From Saccharospirillaceae bacterium (GTDB lineage: Bacteria; Pseudomonadota; Gammaproteobacteria; Pseudomonadales; Oceanobacteraceae), in assembly GCA_022448365.1 (NCBI GenBank), contig JAKVCS010000005.1, forward strand, positions 124,001-188,000: DNA of 64,000 nt. The letters run 5' to 3'. Of this stretch, positions 2,686 through 57,984 are shown in pieces. The position numbers were made by a program, and so were the translations under genes. The notes under the pieces are model-generated. The model saw only the letters and a list, made by a program, of their open reading frames with translations, ran no database searches and had not been told where the DNA came from. Position 1 is the first letter of the stretch. Each line of letters begins with the position of its first letter.

Positions 2686-2798
2686 ATCACAACCATACAC
2701 GTCTTCATACAGGGCACGCAGCAAGTACGTCCCTGTATGCTCTGCTATCGCATCCCTGTGATAGAAGGCCGCGTAATAAAGACCTGTATGGTTATGAT
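2686..2798. repeat. Cloverleaf-like multi-hairpin intergenic element (copy 1)
   Basis: Outer arms 2686-2705 and 2779-2798 are complementary at 18 of 20 positions. They enclose two more hairpins: CATACAGGG (2706-2714) with CCCTGTATG (2731-2739), and CTATCGCA (2745-2752) with TGTGATAG (2757-2764). The tip motif CATCCCTGTGAT (2751-2762) recurs exactly, on the other strand, in copy 3 at 52286-52297. It sits between two codirectional genes (SPFH protein and tex) and encodes nothing visible. Confidence 0.75.
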
Positions 2799-12818: not shown

Positions 12819-12903
<85 letters not shown>

Positions 12904-51104: not shown

Positions 51105-52043
51105 TTACCCACTTGCGCTTTGTGCCGCGATGGCCAAGCCGGCCTTACTGCCATTCGGACGGTTTAATTGTTCACTGATCCAGGCACCGGTTTGTGCCAA
51201 CGACTGTAGATCAACACCCGAGTCGTAACCCAGGCCGTTAAGCATATATACCACGTCCTCGGTGGCGACATTACCGGAGGCGGCTACTCCGGTCGCTGTG
51301 GCACCGGCATACGGGCAACCGCCCAAACCAGCAACCGAGCTATCCACGGTACGAATACCCAGTTCCAGTGCGGCGTAGATATTGGCCAGCGCCTGGCCAT
51401 AGGTATCGTGGAAATGCACTGCCAGCTGCGACATCGGTACATGCATCGCCAGGGTACGAATCAGTTGTTGAGTTTTGGCTGGCGTGCCAACACCAATAGT
51501 GTCGCCGAGAGAAATTTCATAGCAGCCCATATCCAGCAAAGCTTGGGCAACATCGACCACTTTATTCACATCCACTTCACCCTGATACGGGCAGCCCATC
51601 ACGGTGGAAACATAACCGCGCACCGGTAAACCAACGGTACGGGCGTGATCCAGCACTGGACGAATTCGCTCCAGACTCTGCTGAACCGTGCAATTAATAT
51701 TCTTTTGCGTGAAGGCATCTGAAGCAGCGGTGAATACCGCCACTTCATCGGCGTTAGCGGCTAACGCGCCTTCTAACCCTTGTAGGTTGGGTGTCAGCGC
51801 TGCGTATTTCACCGCGTTGTTGCGCTTAGGACTGGCCTTCAGTTGTTGCAGCACCTGATCGCTGCCCGCCATTTGCGGCACCCATTTTGGTGAGACAAAA
51901 CTGCCCGATTCGATGGTCGTTAAACCACAAGCGGCCAGACGTTCGATCAGCTCAACCTTGAGTTTGACCGACAGTTCCTGCTTTTCATTTTGCAGGCCAT
52001 CGCGGGCGCCTACTTCGACGATTTTTATTTTTTCTTTTTTCAT
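51105..52043 (-). CDS. liuE: Hydroxymethylglutaryl-CoA lyase
   Basis: A 312-residue TIM-barrel lyase: HMG-CoA to acetoacetate + acetyl-CoA. Active-site ARDGLQNE near residue 12 and the signature cysteine in VAGLGGCPYAGATATG are present. The start at ATG 52043 (MKKEKIKIVEV) is preferred; near GTG/TTG starts would add three residues. It is separated from liuD by two cloverleaf elements. Confidence 0.94.
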   Translation of the reverse strand: MKKEKIKIVEVGARDGLQNEKQELSVKLKVELIERLAACGLTTIESGSFVSPKWVPQMAGSDQVLQQLKASPKRNNAVKYAALTPNLQGLEGALAANADEVAVFTAASDAFTQKNINCTVQQSLERIRPVLDHARTVGLPVRGYVSTVMGCPYQGEVDVNKVVDVAQALLDMGCYEISLGDTIGVGTPAKTQQLIRTLAMHVPMSQLAVHFHDTYGQALANIYAALELGIRTVDSSVAGLGGCPYAGATATGVAASGNVATEDVVYMLNGLGYDSGVDLQSLAQTGAWISEQLNRPNGSKAGLAIAAQSASG

Positions 52044-52073
52044 CACTAGCAAACCTTATCTAGGTTTTACGCC

Positions 52074-52187
52074 GAGTGTGGCAGCCATAAGACTTTTTTA
52101 CCGCCGCGAAAAGGGTACATCCATGCACTGATTCGCGGTCGCAACATCCTGTTGCTGCTTTAAAAAAGCCTTATGACTGCCGCACTC
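52074..52187. repeat. Cloverleaf-like multi-hairpin intergenic element (copy 2)
   Basis: Outer arms 52074-52100 and 52161-52187 match as inverted repeats at 24 of 27 positions. Inside are CCGCGAA (52104-52110) with TTCGCGG (52132-52138), tipped by GTACATCCATGCAC, and the perfect GCAACA-TCC-TGTTGC hairpin (52141-52155). It shares the CATCC tip motif with copy 1. Confidence 0.75.
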
Positions 52188-52200
52188 TTTTCCTTTATCC

Positions 52201-52212
52201 GAAACACGTTTC
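52201..52212. promoter_or_regulatory. Short dyad between the two elements
   Basis: GAAACACGTTTC is an inverted repeat of GAAAC with a two-base centre, resembling the motif reported for PsrA-type fatty-acid regulators. A weak, low-certainty site. Confidence 0.2.
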
Positions 52213-52229
52213 CGGTTAGTCCAAGAATA

Positions 52230-52339
52230 TTGGATGGTTCCGTGATTTTTCAGAGCCAGCAACAGGATGTTGCGTGTGCATAGAGATCACAGGGATGTGG
52301 CTTTCTATGCACCGGCTGAAAAATTACGGTGCCATGCAA
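52230..52339. repeat. Cloverleaf-like multi-hairpin intergenic element (copy 3)
   Basis: Outer arms 52230-52257 and 52314-52339 pair with a two-base bulge and a few mismatches. Inside are GCAACA-GGA-TGTTGC (52259-52273), the exact inverse of the copy 2 hairpin, and GTGCATAGA (52276-52284) with TCTATGCAC (52304-52312), tipped by CACAGGGATGTG. It is oriented opposite to copies 1 and 2. Confidence 0.75.
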
Positions 52340-52346
52340 AATTCGT

Positions 52347-54338
52347 CTATTCCTCACCCTGAAGAGCAATCAACTCAGCACCTTCAAACACCTGATCACC
52401 AGTGCCGTAGAACACCTGCTTAACCACGCCGTCTTCGGCTGCGCGAATGCTGTGCTCCATCTTCATCGCTTCCATAACCATCAGCACCTGACCGGCTTCC
52501 ACCTGATCACCGGCTGTGACGTTGACTTCCAGCACCTGACCCGACATCGGAGCGGTTAAACCACCATGGTCGTCACCAGCACCTTCGCCCAACCAGACAT
52601 GGCGGGCGTAACGCTTGGTCGCTTTTTCCAGCCAGACGATGGCTTCGTCATCGGTAATTTTGACGTTATGGCGTTGAATTTTGCCATCCAGCTCGTAGCT
52701 TAAAACGCCGCTATTCAGGCTCAGGCCGTTAACCCTGTATGACTGGTCTTCGATGTCGATCTGAAGCGAACCATCCGCTTGATGCTGAACCTTGGCGACA
52801 CAGGAATCACCGCTGGCGGTATTCAAATAAACCGTTTTGCGAGCATTCAGATTCATTCTGAAATGATCATGGATATTCCAGGGATCAGAGGACGTCGCAA
52901 CCCCGGATTTTGCCTCGTGCGCCAGCTCTGCCAGTGCGCCCAATAACCAGTCCGGATCCTGCTCGGCATCCAGCTCATGACGATCAATAAAATCGGTCGA
53001 TAGATCTGCTGCGATAAAGCCCGGCTCTGCCATTAAACGCGCGAGAAAATCACGGTTGTTTTTAACCCCATCGATTTCCAATTCAGTTAACGCTTGCTGC
53101 ATGCGAACAATGGCGGCATTGCGATCGGCACCCCACACAATCAGCTTAGCGATCATCGGATCGTAATACGGCGATACGGTATCACCTTCGATCACACCAC
53201 TATCAACCCGAATAGAGGAAGTCCTGTCAAAGTTACAGGCGGCAGGCCAGCGTAAACGGCTTAAATCACCAATCGCTGGCAAGAAGCCATTGTCGGCATC
53301 CTCGGCGTAAATCCGCACTTCGATTGCGTGGCCATGAACGCGCAACTGGTCCTGAGTCACCGGAAGGGTCTCACCCGCAGCCACACGCAGCTGCCATTCC
53401 ACCAGATCCTGGTCAGTGACCATTTCGGTAACCGGATGCTCAACCTGCAGACGGGTGTTCATCTCCATAAAGAAGAAATCACCACGGCTATCGAGCAGGA
53501 ATTCCACGGTACCGGCGCCAACGTAATTAATCTTATGGGCGGCGGCGAGGGCGGCTTCACCCATGCGGCGACGTAAATCTTCGTCGTCATTAAAACCCGG
53601 AGCCGGTGCCTCCTCAATCACCTTCTGGTGACGACGTTGCACCGAACAATCACGTTCAAACAGGTAAACACCGTTGCCGTGTTTATCGCAGAATACCTGC
53701 ACTTCCACGTGACGTGGCTTCAGCAGATATTTTTCAATCAGCAGACGGTCATCGCCAAAAGACGATAACCCCTCACGACGGGCACTGACGATGTTTTCCA
53801 ACACGTCGGCGGCTTTGTCCACCACCCGCATACCTTTACCACCGCCACCCGCGCTGGCTTTTAACAGCACCGGAAAGCCAATGCGTTCGGCTTCAGCGCA
53901 CAACAAATCATCAGACTGGTCTTCACCGTGGTAGCCAGGCACCAGCGGCACTGCGCTATCAGATAACAGGGCTTTGGCGCTGGCTTTGTCACCCATGGCT
54001 TCGATAGAAGATGCCGATGGGCCAATAAATTCGATAGCGTTTTCAGTACAGGCACGGGAAAACGCCGCGTTTTCACTCAGGAATCCATAGCCCGGATGAA
54101 TTGCCTGGGCGCCGGTTTGTTTTGCCGCTGCAATCACATTATCGATTTGCAGATAGCTTTGGCTGGCGGCCGCCGGGCCAACACACACGGCTTCATCAGC
54201 GGCTAATACATGTTGCGCGTGACGATCGGCTTCGGAATACAACGCCACGGTGCGAATACCCATGGCTTTAGCAGTACGCATCACCCGCAGGGCAATTTCG
54301 CCGCGGTTAGCAATCAGGATCTTACTGAACATAGTCAT
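52347..54338 (-). CDS. liuD: Methylcrotonyl-CoA carboxylase, biotin-carrying alpha subunit
   Basis: A 663-residue biotin carboxylase plus BCCP: ATP-grasp with SAGGGGKGMRVV, EMNTRLQVEHPVTE, and C-terminal biotin site AMKME with K626. With LiuB it carboxylates 3-methylcrotonyl-CoA. ATG 54338 follows AGGAG. Confidence 0.95.
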   Translation of the reverse strand: MTMFSKILIANRGEIALRVMRTAKAMGIRTVALYSEADRHAQHVLAADEAVCVGPAAASQSYLQIDNVIAAAKQTGAQAIHPGYGFLSENAAFSRACTENAIEFIGPSASSIEAMGDKASAKALLSDSAVPLVPGYHGEDQSDDLLCAEAERIGFPVLLKASAGGGGKGMRVVDKAADVLENIVSARREGLSSFGDDRLLIEKYLLKPRHVEVQVFCDKHGNGVYLFERDCSVQRRHQKVIEEAPAPGFNDDEDLRRRMGEAALAAAHKINYVGAGTVEFLLDSRGDFFFMEMNTRLQVEHPVTEMVTDQDLVEWQLRVAAGETLPVTQDQLRVHGHAIEVRIYAEDADNGFLPAIGDLSRLRWPAACNFDRTSSIRVDSGVIEGDTVSPYYDPMIAKLIVWGADRNAAIVRMQQALTELEIDGVKNNRDFLARLMAEPGFIAADLSTDFIDRHELDAEQDPDWLLGALAELAHEAKSGVATSSDPWNIHDHFRMNLNARKTVYLNTASGDSCVAKVQHQADGSLQIDIEDQSYRVNGLSLNSGVLSYELDGKIQRHNVKITDDEAIVWLEKATKRYARHVWLGEGAGDDHGGLTAPMSGQVLEVNVTAGDQVEAGQVLMVMEAMKMEHSIRAAEDGVVKQVFYGTGDQVFEGAELIALQGEE

Positions 54339-54339
54339 G

Positions 54340-55143
54340 TTATTTATCTCCTGTTGCGCTGTTTGTTACGGAATAAGCTGCAGCACGCTTTTCAAAAAAT
54401 GCGGTTAAGCCTTCCTGACCTTCATCACCCACACGTAAACGAGCAATCAGTTCCGAGGTGTAGGCTTTTAACTCATCATCGATGGCTTTATTACTGACCT
54501 CTCGAATCAGTTGCTTGGTAGCGGCGATGGCTTGCGGGCCGTTATTCAGCAGATTTCTGATCCAGCCAGCCGTCACATCAGAGAGCGTTTCACGTGAAAC
54601 AATTTGATGTATCAATCCGATTTCATATGCCTTTTCGGCATTAATAAGTTCAGCCGTTAAGAAATAACGACGCGCCTGACGTGCGCCCATCGCCGCAATC
54701 ACATACGGACTGATGGTTGCCGGACTCAGACCCAGTTTCACTTCACTCAGACAGAAACGGGCATCATCCGATGCCACTACCATATCGCAGCAGCTGATCA
54801 GACCCAGGGCACCACCAAAAGCAGCACCTTGAACTTCAGCAATCGTGGGTTTTGGGAAGGAGTTCAGTTCATCCAGCAGATCAGCCAGACGGCCAGAGTC
54901 GGCCTGGTTTTCTGCCAGCGACGCTTGTTTCTGTGACTTCATCCAGTTCAGGTCACCACCGGCGCAAAAGTGTTTACCTTCGCCCTGCAATACCAGAACC
55001 CGCACGGCATCATCTGCCGCCAGGCTGGCCAGTGCCTGACGTAATTCGGAAACAGTTTCGGCATTAAAAGCGTTATGAACCTGTGGACGGTTCAGAGTTA
55101 AGCGGGCGATTTTCCCTGCAATATGAACGGTAATATTTTCCAT
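54340..55143 (-). CDS. liuC: Methylglutaconyl-CoA hydratase
   Basis: A 267-residue crotonase with GKHFCAGGDLNWMK and GAAFGGALGLISCCDM; the position in the cluster assigns it to 3-methylglutaconyl-CoA hydration. It carries the parS site within its codons for V-S-R-E-T. Only one base separates its stop from the liuD ATG. Confidence 0.92.
   Translation of the reverse strand: MENITVHIAGKIARLTLNRPQVHNAFNAETVSELRQALASLAADDAVRVLVLQGEGKHFCAGGDLNWMKSQKQASLAENQADSGRLADLLDELNSFPKPTIAEVQGAAFGGALGLISCCDMVVASDDARFCLSEVKLGLSPATISPYVIAAMGARQARRYFLTAELINAEKAYEIGLIHQIVSRETLSDVTAGWIRNLLNNGPQAIAATKQLIREVSNKAIDDELKAYTSELIARLRVGDEGQEGLTAFFEKRAAAYSVTNSATGDK
54586..54601. promoter_or_regulatory. parS centromere site inside liuC
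   Basis: CGTTTCACGTGAAACA: the inner 14-bp GTTTCACGTGAAAC is a perfect palindrome. The whole matches the ParB consensus TGTTTCACGTGAAACA at 15 of 16 positions. It lies about 7.2 kb from parA and 8 kb from parB, as expected for chromosomal parS clusters near the origin. Confidence 0.88.
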
Positions 55144-55155
55144 AGTTCCGTACCC

Positions 55156-56796
55156 TTACATCCGAAACACGCCAAACTGCGTGTCCTCAATCGGTTTATT
55201 CAGACAAGCGGATAACGCCAAACCCAACACCCGGCGGCTATCAGCCGGATCAATAATGCCGTCGTCCCACAGGCGTGCGGAGCTGTAATACGGATGACCT
55301 TGTTTTTCATACGTATCGCGTATCGGTTGTTTAAATGCCTCGGCTTCGGCGTCTTTCCATTCCACACCTTTCTTGGCGAGAGCGTCTTTTTTCACCTGAG
55401 CCAGAACACCGGCGGCCTGTTCGCCGCCCATCACCGAAATACGGGCGTTGGGCCACATAAACATAAAGTTCGGATCATAAGCACGGCCACACATGCCATA
55501 GTTACCGGCACCAAAAGAGCCACCAATCACCAAGGTTAATTTAGGCACTCTGGCACACGCGACAGCGGTAACCATTTTGGCGCCATGACGGGCGATACCT
55601 TCGGCTTCGTATTTTGATCCAACCATAAAACCGGTGATGTTTTGCAGGAAGATCAGCGGAATCTTGCGCTGCGCGCACAACTCAATAAAGTGCGCCCCTT
55701 TTTGGGCAGCCTCACTGAACAGGATGCCGTTGTTGGCAACAATGCCCACCGGCATGCCGTATAGCCGGGCAAACCCTGTCACCAGCGTGGTGCCGTATCG
55801 CGCCTTAAATTCATCAAATTCAGAACCATCGACTAAACGGGCAATGACTTCACGTACGTCATACGGGAGGCGGGTATCCTGAGGGATCAGGCCATACAAC
55901 TCTTCCGCCGGATACCGTGGTTCTTTAGTTGGGGACTCAACACTTTCGCGCTGATCCACAGCCGTGTTCTCAAAAGAATAGGGCTTCTGCCAGTTGAGAC
56001 GACCTACGGCGTTACGCGCCAGCTGCAAACCGTGGGCATCGTTTTCCGCCAGATGATCGGCAACACCAGATTTCGTGGTGTGTAATTCGCCGCCACCCAG
56101 TTCTTCGGCGGTGACTTCTTCACCGATTGCCATCTTCACCAGCGGTGGGCCCGCCAGAAAAATGGTGCCTTGCTCACGCACGATAATGGCTTCGTCCGCC
56201 ATGGCTGGCACATAAGCACCACCAGCGGTACAGGAACCCATTACTACCGCAATTTGTGGAATGCCGCAGGCCGACATGTTGGCCTGGTTAAAGAAGATGC
56301 GTCCGAAGTGTTCGCGGTCCGGAAATACTTCTTCCTGACGCGGCAGATTAGCACCGCCAGAATCGACAAGATAAATACACGGCAGACGGTTCTGCTCCGC
56401 AATGGCCTGGGCGCGCAGGTGTTTTTTCACGGTCAGCGGGTAATAGCTACCGCCTTTTACCGTGGCGTCGTTAGCGACAATCATACATTCCACACCATTC
56501 ACCCGACCGATTCCGGCAACCGCTCCGGCGGCAGGGACGTGCTCACCGTCGTACACTTCAAACGCGGCCATCTGGCCAATTTCCAGAAAAGCACTGCCCG
56601 GATCAAGCAACTGCTGAATGCGTTCGCGCACCGGCAGTTTGCCGCGGCTGATGTGACGTTGCATCGACGCTTCACCACCGCCCTCACGGATGGTGGCGAG
56701 TTTATCGCGCAGGTCATCAACCAGCGACTGCATATGGGCGTGGTTGGCCTCGTAGTCGGGTGAGTGTGTATCCAGACGCGTCTGAATGATTGGCAT
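55156..56796 (-). CDS. liuB: Methylcrotonyl-CoA carboxylase, carboxyltransferase beta subunit
   Basis: A 546-residue carboxyltransferase with the [20 protein letters not shown] start region and [15 protein letters not shown]; the partner of LiuD. It belongs to leucine/isovalerate degradation. Confidence 0.95.
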
Positions 56797-56826
56797 AACG
56801 CTTACCTCGTTCTCGCAGTACCGGAG

Positions 56827-57984
56827 TTATTTCAGTTCTTCAAACATTTCACGGCCGATCAACATACGGCGGATCTCCGACGTACCGGCACCAATTTCAT
56901 ACAGCTTGGCATCGCGTAATAAACGACCCGTCGGGAAATCATTGATATAGCCGTTTCCACCCAGTAGTTGAATCGCATCCAGCGCCATTTGCGTGGCTTT
57001 TTCAGCGGTATAGAGAATCACGCCAGCCGCGTCTTTGCGGGTGGTTTCACCACGGTCACAAGCTGCAGCAACGTTGTAGAGATAAGAACGTGAAGCGTTC
57101 ATATTGGTGTACATATCCGCCAGCTTGCCCTGTACCAGCTGGAACTGACCCAGCGATTTACCAAACTGCTGACGATCAACAATGTAAGGTTTCACAATAT
57201 CCATACAGGCCATCATGATGCCGGTCGGGCCACCCGACAGCACCACACGCTCGTAATCCAGGCCACTCATCAGCACCTTCACACCCTGATTTAAACCACC
57301 GAGGATATTTTCTTCTGGTACTGCACAGTCTTCGAAAATCAGTTCACAGGTATTGGAGCCGCGCATACCGAGCTTGTCGAGGTGGGTGCCACGGCTGAAC
57401 CCTTTAAAGTCGCGCTCAACAATAAACGCGGTAATACCGTGAGGGCCTTTTTCACTGTCGGTTTTGGCGTAGATCACATAAGTGTTGGCGTCCGGACCAT
57501 TGGTAATCCACATCTTGCTGCCATTCAGAATGTACCTATCACCTTGTTTATCAGCGCGCAGCTTCATGCTAACCACATCAGAGCCGGCGTTTGGTTCACT
57601 CATTGCCAACGCACCAATGTGTTCACCGGATATCAGTTTTGGCAAGTACCTGGTCTTTTGCTCAGCGCTGCCGTTACGCGAAATCTGGTTTACGCACAGG
57701 TTTGAGTGGGCACCATAAGACAGGCCAACGGAGGCGGAAGCACGGGAAATTTCTTCCATCGCGACGACATGGGCCAGATAACCCATGTTGGCGCCGCCGT
57801 ATTCTTCTTCTGCGGTGATACCCAGCAAACCCTGGTCACCAAAGCGCTTCCACATCTCATTTGGGAACCGGTTTTCCTTATCCACCTCAGCCGCAATGGG
57901 CGCCAGCTCGCTCTGAACGAAGCCGTTGACCTGGTCGCGCAACATGTCGATGGTTTCGCCTAAGCCGAAATTTAAATCGCTCAT
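56827..57984 (-). CDS. liuA: Isovaleryl-CoA dehydrogenase
   Basis: A 385-residue acyl-CoA dehydrogenase with the catalytic Glu in [13 protein letters not shown], which is the internal position typical of isovaleryl-CoA dehydrogenases, and the FAD region [16 protein letters not shown] 57984 with AGGAG upstream is taken over the in-frame TTG two codons earlier. Confidence 0.95.

Follow-up and report, generated by a model that had tools for sequence, protein, structure and literature searches.

A small number of dedicated sRNAs are believed to set the activity of CsrA. These RNAs, CsrB and CsrC or RsmX, RsmY and RsmZ, come from few dedicated genes and carry many sites each. In the literature, cited throughout from excerpts, the closest described element is TwoAYGGAY (Rfam RF01731), which appears in a 2010 table as a probable RNA (PMC2864571); in 2014 it was proposed to bind CsrA, with an external stem called poorly conserved (PMC4333381). 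The many-site make-up of the dedicated sRNAs is also described in PMC7652899, together with a SELEX consensus, RUACARGGAUGU, the CsrB repeat CAGGA(U/A/C)G and a preference of SELEX for short stems. The high-affinity target of RsmE is an ANGGAX hexaloop on a stem, in which N and X are variable (PMC4005645). In P. putida, RsmA, RsmE and RsmI bind several intergenic sequences in vivo, one of which is described as a long palindromic region (PMC7937890). With regard to repeats of the kind presented below, the excerpts from papers on dedicated CsrA sRNAs (Alteromonas/Alcanivorax; PMC5864184, PMC9788540) and from the Rfam 12 paper (PMC4383904) do not mention them, and among the literature matches listed no paper was found to present TwoAYGGAY or CsrA-loop elements as repeats dispersed in a genome. 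We propose, with slightly better than even confidence, that dispersed RNA elements of the TwoAYGGAY kind act as decoys and form a distributed CsrA sponge.

Three cloverleaf elements in the window

The window is the whole stretch of DNA analysed here, 64,000 nucleotides of contig JAKVCS010000005.1 from a Saccharospirillaceae bacterium. It holds three elements for which an earlier note had described a cloverleaf design, with a long outer stem around two inner hairpins, and folding confirmed their coordinates, outer stems and inner hairpins. On the + strand the fold energies of copies 1, 2 and 3 were -44.5, -53.6 and -56.9 kcal/mol, with fold z-scores of -6.14, -7.73 and -8.57 and 0 of 200 shuffles as low. 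The features are given below, where R1 is a covariance model made from ten copies picked by the 15-mer of hairpin A.

2686..2798, - strand: copy 1, putative sister subtype, outer arms 2686-2708 and 2776-2798 around two hairpins; fold z -6.1
2745..2764, - strand: copy 1 hairpin with loop AGGGAT, CTATCACAGGGATGCGATAG on the - strand; from sequence and fold
2706..2739, - strand: copy 1 second hairpin, CATACAGGGACGTACTTGCTGCGTGCCCTGTATG; from by-eye likeness to L054:17258, L075:9890, L095:15098 and L097:13415
51105..52046, - strand: downstream gene, hydroxymethylglutaryl-CoA lyase family; NF004283, 428 bits, cut-off 246
52074..52187, - strand: copy 2, R1 family, outer stem of about 27 bp; R1 77.5 bits, fold z -7.7
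52141..52155, - strand: copy 2 hairpin A, GCAACAGGATGTTGC, pentaloop AGGAT; from sequence and genome 15-mer count
52103..52139, - strand: copy 2 hairpin B, ATGGAT tip; from sequence and fold
52230..52339, + strand: copy 3, R1 family; R1 73.4 bits, fold z -8.6
52259..52273, + strand: copy 3 hairpin A, GCAACAGGATGTTGC; from sequence and genome 15-mer count
52276..52312, + strand: copy 3 hairpin B, tip AGGGAT; from sequence and fold
52347..54338, - strand: upstream gene, biotin carboxylase family; NF006367, 613.5 bits, cut-off 597

Among the 12 inverted repeats listed for the window, with arms no more than 150 bases apart, the outer stems of copies 3 and 1 rank first in length, that of copy 1 being inverted repeat I2 (87%); the outer stem of copy 2 is absent from this list because it is interrupted. 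The shared hairpin tips were also recovered as described before, since CATCCCTGTGAT of copy 1 is found again as ATCACAGGGATG in copy 3, and GCAACATCCTGTTGC is common to copies 2 and 3, in inverted form. Short hairpins with a CATC-type tip account for 13 rows in the window, three sites appearing in two rows, whereas 20 mononucleotide shuffles average 4.15. Furthermore, the 3.92-Mb genome contains 10 occurrences of GCAACATCCTGTTGC, the 15-mer of hairpin A, and none of its reversed, uncomplemented control. Two points absent from the earlier note are that the complement of the CATCC tip is AGGAU or ANGGAU, a published CsrA/RsmA loop, and that sibling copies of the family match TwoAYGGAY. The idea of a single family for all three copies stood for copies 2 and 3, which R1 matches, and not for copy 1, which R1 does not match and which by eye falls into a sister subtype whose second hairpin follows TACAGGGACGTA.

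The GGA strand of copy 1 is the - strand, as are both flanking genes. That of copy 2 is also the - strand, sense to its operon; copy 3 is inverted with respect to copy 2, with its GGA strand on +, antisense to the operon. This likely leucine-degradation operon (51105-57984; carboxylase, lyase and acyl-CoA dehydrogenase families) contains both copies. The nearest relative of its lyase among named genomes is in a Thalassobium MAG (75%). In the genus g6, an R1 element likewise adjoins an acyl-CoA dehydrogenase gene (gene read by eye). The only Rfam match over its cut-off in the window is a tRNA gene at 12822-12903.

Family size, relatives and placement

A covariance-model search of the whole genome, which the earlier note had called for, uncovered further copies and a dispersed family. 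When 150 of its 1871 candidates were scored, the genome of the window (G000) gave at least 44 R1 matches at E<=1, at least 39 of them at E<=0.01; a congener (G001) gave at least 80 at E<=0.01 from 81 candidates scored. Across 55 genomes 13 had a match, with a family copy number from 0 to at least 80; a further genome, G003, had 61 matches (best E 6.8e-7), and the other matching genomes had 1 to 3 each. A genome would hold some 40 to 80 of these short intergenic RNA cloverleaves, the two hairpin loops of which resemble docking sites for CsrA, a global regulator. Among 80 named loci R1 had one match, in Marinobacter sp. F3R08, at a locus with no RF01731 match at cut-off. Six R1 pairs of opposite orientation, 37 to 70 bases apart, were seen in G000, including 52088/52242 of the window; the others are as follows.

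C1:390425/390558, C1:686444/686570, C3:1484023/1484151, C4:612466/612571 and C5:367928/368071: inverted R1 pairs of G000 outside the window, opposite orientation

With regard to RF01731, the copies of the window gave no match even at E<=5. Eight loci were tested: L011 reached 41.3 bits against the gathering cut-off of 43, L011 and L041 aligned over model positions 1-168 on the GGA strand, and L046 and, weakly, L048 were also matched. In 55 relatives, 21 had a match at E<=0.01 and 12 were over cut-off (G001 and 11 others), with at least 26 copies in G001, 40 in G003, 19 in G010, 20 in G012 and 19 in G017 from at most 41 candidates scored in each; the G001 copies scored up to 52.5 bits, over the cut-off. 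Of 274 genomes from the class, for each of which no more than 9 candidates were scored, at least 15 matched at E<=1e-4 and at least 13 exceeded the cut-off. In the genus g8, RF01731-matching loci (L134-L169) share stretches of about 150 to 600 bp, arms included, among the matches listed, in contrast to the private arms of G000 and G001.

The sister subtype comprises the four loci named for the second hairpin of copy 1 and copy 1 itself; its members have private arms, a second hairpin that is by eye of the TACAGGGAYGTATTYACGGCGTG type, and a first hairpin with GGA at or near the tip. A first search pattern found 1 site and missed copy 1, and an exact 15-mer had 0 occurrences in 289 loci. A looser pattern gave 7 intergenic sites, 5 of which fold below -40 and 4 of which fit by eye. 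An Rfam search of the L097 and window copies of this subtype gave no credible match. In the genus g6, four loci (L272, L274, L279 and L282) hold more long intergenic palindromes, which by eye have ATGGAT or CAGGGA hairpin tips and a different sequence, and which sometimes share one gap with an R1 element.

Placement was classified for 129 copies, namely the 128 R1 matches at E<=0.5 and copy 1, placed by hand, in 83 stretches around copies with genes called by a dicodon score made for this analysis. Copy 1 is included in the placement, stem-extent, G.U, promoter and replication-strand counts and excluded from the loop, core-identity/G.U, random-arm and column-shuffle analyses. The intergenic bias that the earlier note had proposed to check is evident: 7 of the 129 copies overlap a called gene, 100 lie in co-directional gaps, 16 in convergent and 5 in divergent ones, and 1 at an edge. 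Divergent gaps are avoided: they hold 5 of 121 copies but, counting gaps of at least 100 bp, 29% of the intergenic bases. This background is not independent, because the stretches were picked around copies. In the 100 tandem gaps, the element starts a median of 18 nt past the upstream stop codon, and the GGA strand is the sense strand in 53 of them and the antisense strand in 47. Neither flank composition nor a simple -35/-10 score revealed a shared promoter, and the score did not differ between the GGA side and the opposite side.

Constraint on stems and loops, and exchange of cores

The expected covariation of the stems is borne out by a 128-copy alignment, in which 89.1% of cells are paired against 68.8% in shuffles and the covariation score is 0.492 against 0.158 shuffled and at most 0.096 with partners slid, the rows having been fitted to R1, which biases pairing towards the model. 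The outer stem reaches position ~26-28 from the core and then fades. On the GGA strand, at positions 3-26 of the 129 copies, mismatches comprise 273 G.U against 56 A.C, beside 145 others and 2450 Watson-Crick pairs, and G.U exceeds A.C in 105 of the 115 copies with unequal counts; an ungapped count gives 287 against 77. The G.U:A.C counts are 155:18 and 113:37 on the two replication strands (127 of the 129 copies, strand taken from GC skew), and 116:13, 95:30 and 40:6 in sense, antisense and convergent copies, so that the bias is present in antisense copies and weaker there than in sense copies (Fisher p 0.004). The chief objection to the decoy reading is this antisense half, since for it to keep the constraint, antisense transcription or recent turning would be needed.

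The search model opposes this signal, since R1 was built from the other strand, on which the same pairs read as A.C mismatches. At positions 14-26, outside the R1-matched stretch, the counts are 181:35, a G.U share of 0.838, whereas in 2000 column shuffles of these positions the share averages 0.615 and never exceeds 0.665, so that composition alone was rejected as the cause. Random pairing of arms from different copies gives 608 G.U against 313 A.C. Base composition accounts for part of the G.U excess, not all of it. A DNA hairpin gives no reason for the remainder, whereas RNA folding of the GGA strand does, and the excess agrees with an RNA-level constraint on that strand. A nucleoid protein target, one of the roles suggested before, fits poorly with a bias that keeps to one strand whatever the gene or replication orientation, and a DNA cruciform is disfavoured by the same signal.

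Copies with a core at least 95% identical to another carry 2.2 G.U per stem, no fewer than divergent copies; G.U was therefore not visibly gained since core duplication, which speaks against a simple account. A.C rises from 0.27 per stem in near-identical-core copies to 0.5-0.6 in divergent ones. One reading of these loads is that the arms may be older than the cores; core identity as an age clock for the arms was dropped.

In the GGA frame, hairpin A is GCAACAGGATGTTGC-like, mostly with an AGGAU pentaloop, and hairpin B reads CA-N-GGA-X-G. GGA is present in hairpin A of 114 of the 128 copies, in hairpin B of 107 and in both in 99. In loop B of the best 96 copies, GGA holds 1.68-1.72 bits, X 1.31 and N 0.81, N and X being the two least conserved of its eight letters, against 0.23-1.39 in stem columns; part of the loop conservation is ascertainment, because the 15-mer seed holds hairpin A and the model scores both loops. 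For the loop counts, hairpin picking by longest stem, which chose the wrong helices in many copies, was replaced. Hairpin B is an ANGGAX loop on a stem, as in the published consensus of CsrA/RsmA-binding RNA, and hairpin A has no N, a lack that lowers RsmE affinity (consensus and effect of N from PMC4005645). G000 has one CsrA gene (PF02599, E 2.6e-25), the product of which is nearly identical to a CsrA of solved structure, PDB 1vpz, with 55 of 57 aligned residues in common (E 2.7e-31).

In 24 within-genome pairs with a core identity of at least 0.95, the outer-arm identity is 0.54 against a null of 0.545, the inner arms being partly shared. Near-identical cores without common outer arms indicate that the whole unit is not what gets copied; copying of a whole unit with its terminal repeats, as in a MITE, was not found. 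Between G000 and G001, the arms in the same gap are homologous in 12 of 20 pairings where core orientation agrees (p<=0.0125) and in 4 of 12 where the core is flipped (p<=0.0035), some of these 32 between-species pairings having a copy in common. Paired positions in 15 arm-conserved pairs comprise 242 unchanged, 21 changed on both sides and still paired, 35 changed on one side and still paired, 23 broken and 11 restored by one change, and 3 broken and 3 restored by two.

Core identity at the four flipped loci is 0.75, 0.67, 0.73 and 0.79, against a random cross-genome mean of 0.67 (sd 0.09), and the core there resembles another variant, which leaves a simple inversion of the orthologous core unsupported; with 10 of the 17 same-orientation pairs listed also at or below 0.79, an inverted core that has since diverged could account for these values as well. 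Given that the arms are near-palindromic, inversion of the whole unit fits the arms equally well or better at two of the four loci (L116 and L121). The arms thus outlast core orientation, and perhaps core identity too.

At several sites one species holds an element in a gap where the other has neither arms nor core. A pre-existing palindrome as insertion target was rejected on readable empty gaps, in which both arms are missing (12 pairs in part, plus 6 pairs). At L070:5582, the other species holds an apparent decayed copy. At one site in the genus g6, the element is found in G016 and G021, and G006, G011 and G031 have no R1 match; G006 carries the left arm of G021 once, its inverted partner being absent, and this is the one case that comes close to such a target. 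Insertion with an inverted target duplication and hairpin deletion between CATGC direct repeats fit this G006/G021 site equally well.

The elements have short conserved inverted ends, TTTTTCA/TGAAAAA. Template switching between short inverted repeats inverts spacers and homogenises arms (PMC8604942), and it also creates and mends RNA stems (PMC8794818). We infer that the putative CsrA decoys may spread or exchange like cassettes. A core exchange could proceed when a nascent strand copies the core of another element, in either direction, through these ends. Taken as a whole, it is a tentative suggestion, to which we give a minority share of our confidence, that the sponge consists of exchangeable cassettes, short cores with two CsrA loops each that travel or are copied from one locus to another in either orientation and via their inverted ends, and that a locus-private 25-bp stem is kept across species by selection on RNA pairing.

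Readings of the family and comparison with known systems

In the proposed sequestration of CsrA, the transcript of the GGA strand would fold into an outer stem of about 25 bp that closes hairpin A (mostly AGGAU) and hairpin B (ANGGAU). Each element would thus offer two putative CsrA docking sites, sufficient for one CsrA dimer, within a sealed stem that is probably nuclease-resistant. Tens of copies on many transcripts, if transcribed and bound, could jointly titrate CsrA as a sponge, and the elements may also protect the upstream mRNA end. Only the pairing of the stem would matter and not its sequence, so that the arms stay private to their locus.

A selfish short DNA element of the MITE or REP kind, with ATCC tips read as single-stranded DNA by a transposase and no cellular function, is the alternative that survives best, and we regard it as unlikely. 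It would account for a dispersed, mostly intergenic family of almost random orientation (53:47), for the range of copy numbers, the gaps empty in one species, the six inverted pairs in G000 and the conserved inverted ends. The association of a REP with its tyrosine transposase, which the earlier note had raised, was not found: PF01797, the only transposase family searched, has 0 matches in G000 and G001, though G001 has at least 80 copies, and a RAYT/REP origin is thus unsupported in this genus. This family was present in 4 of the 10 genomes searched. Near-identical cores without common outer arms also speak against a selfish element, as does the one-sided G.U excess on the GGA strand, which would be unexpected of a DNA hairpin.

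The short distance to the upstream stop codon in tandem gaps and the avoidance of divergent gaps would both suit a role as intercistronic hairpins in the mRNA, which stop exonucleases or show RNases where to cleave, similar to REP stem-loops, and in which the GGA loops are incidental. This reading appears improbable, given that the loop letters are conserved while the stems vary, that the variable loop letters are N and X, and that the strand-specific constraint persists in antisense copies. A neutral origin, in which template switching during replication creates and repairs the palindromes around a conserved core, is very improbable: such switching does make and mend stems and invert spacers (PMC8794818, PMC8604942), and one arm is single-copy in the empty G006 site with the other its inverted copy in G021, but equal G.U and A.C per strand would be predicted, against the 273:56 observed and the excess on both replication strands.

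If, as in the proposed sequestration of CsrA, each of tens of intergenic repeats has a pair of CsrA loops, the amount of free CsrA would vary with the share of the genome under transcription as well, and a global regulator would be tuned by the number of repeats. The exchange of cores within conserved arms would, if confirmed, be an unusual route of evolution for a non-coding element, and if the cassettes are indeed exchangeable, the TwoAYGGAY of Rfam would represent a mobile repeat of RNA decoys and not an sRNA from a single locus. At a more general level, the asymmetry of G.U and A.C in private stems provides a simple sequence-only test of RNA- versus DNA-level constraint in palindromic repeats.

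Compared with known systems, the family resembles REP/BIME elements with a RAYT in its short intergenic palindromes, some of them in inverted pairs, and differs in the absence of Y1_Tnp from G000 and G001, in its private arms and in the RNA-strand constraint. The P. putida Rsm targets near ISPpu8, as described in the excerpt from PMC7937890, are likewise intergenic repeats, one of them a long palindrome; they are tied to an insertion sequence, and the likeness lies in their description. CsrB/CsrC and RsmX/Y/Z share the GGA hairpin loops of CsrA consensus and a proposed role in sequestration, whereas the elements presented here have two sites, many copies and no recognisable promoter. TwoAYGGAY has the same outer stem around two GGA-loop hairpins on one strand, hairpin A being here usually an AGGAU pentaloop and not AYGGAY. 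The literature excerpts treat TwoAYGGAY as an sRNA or RNA candidate, whereas here it is a dispersed repeat with locus-specific arms in either orientation. What is new is the multi-copy family with locus-specific outer arms, together with four loci at which conserved arms surround an oppositely oriented core.
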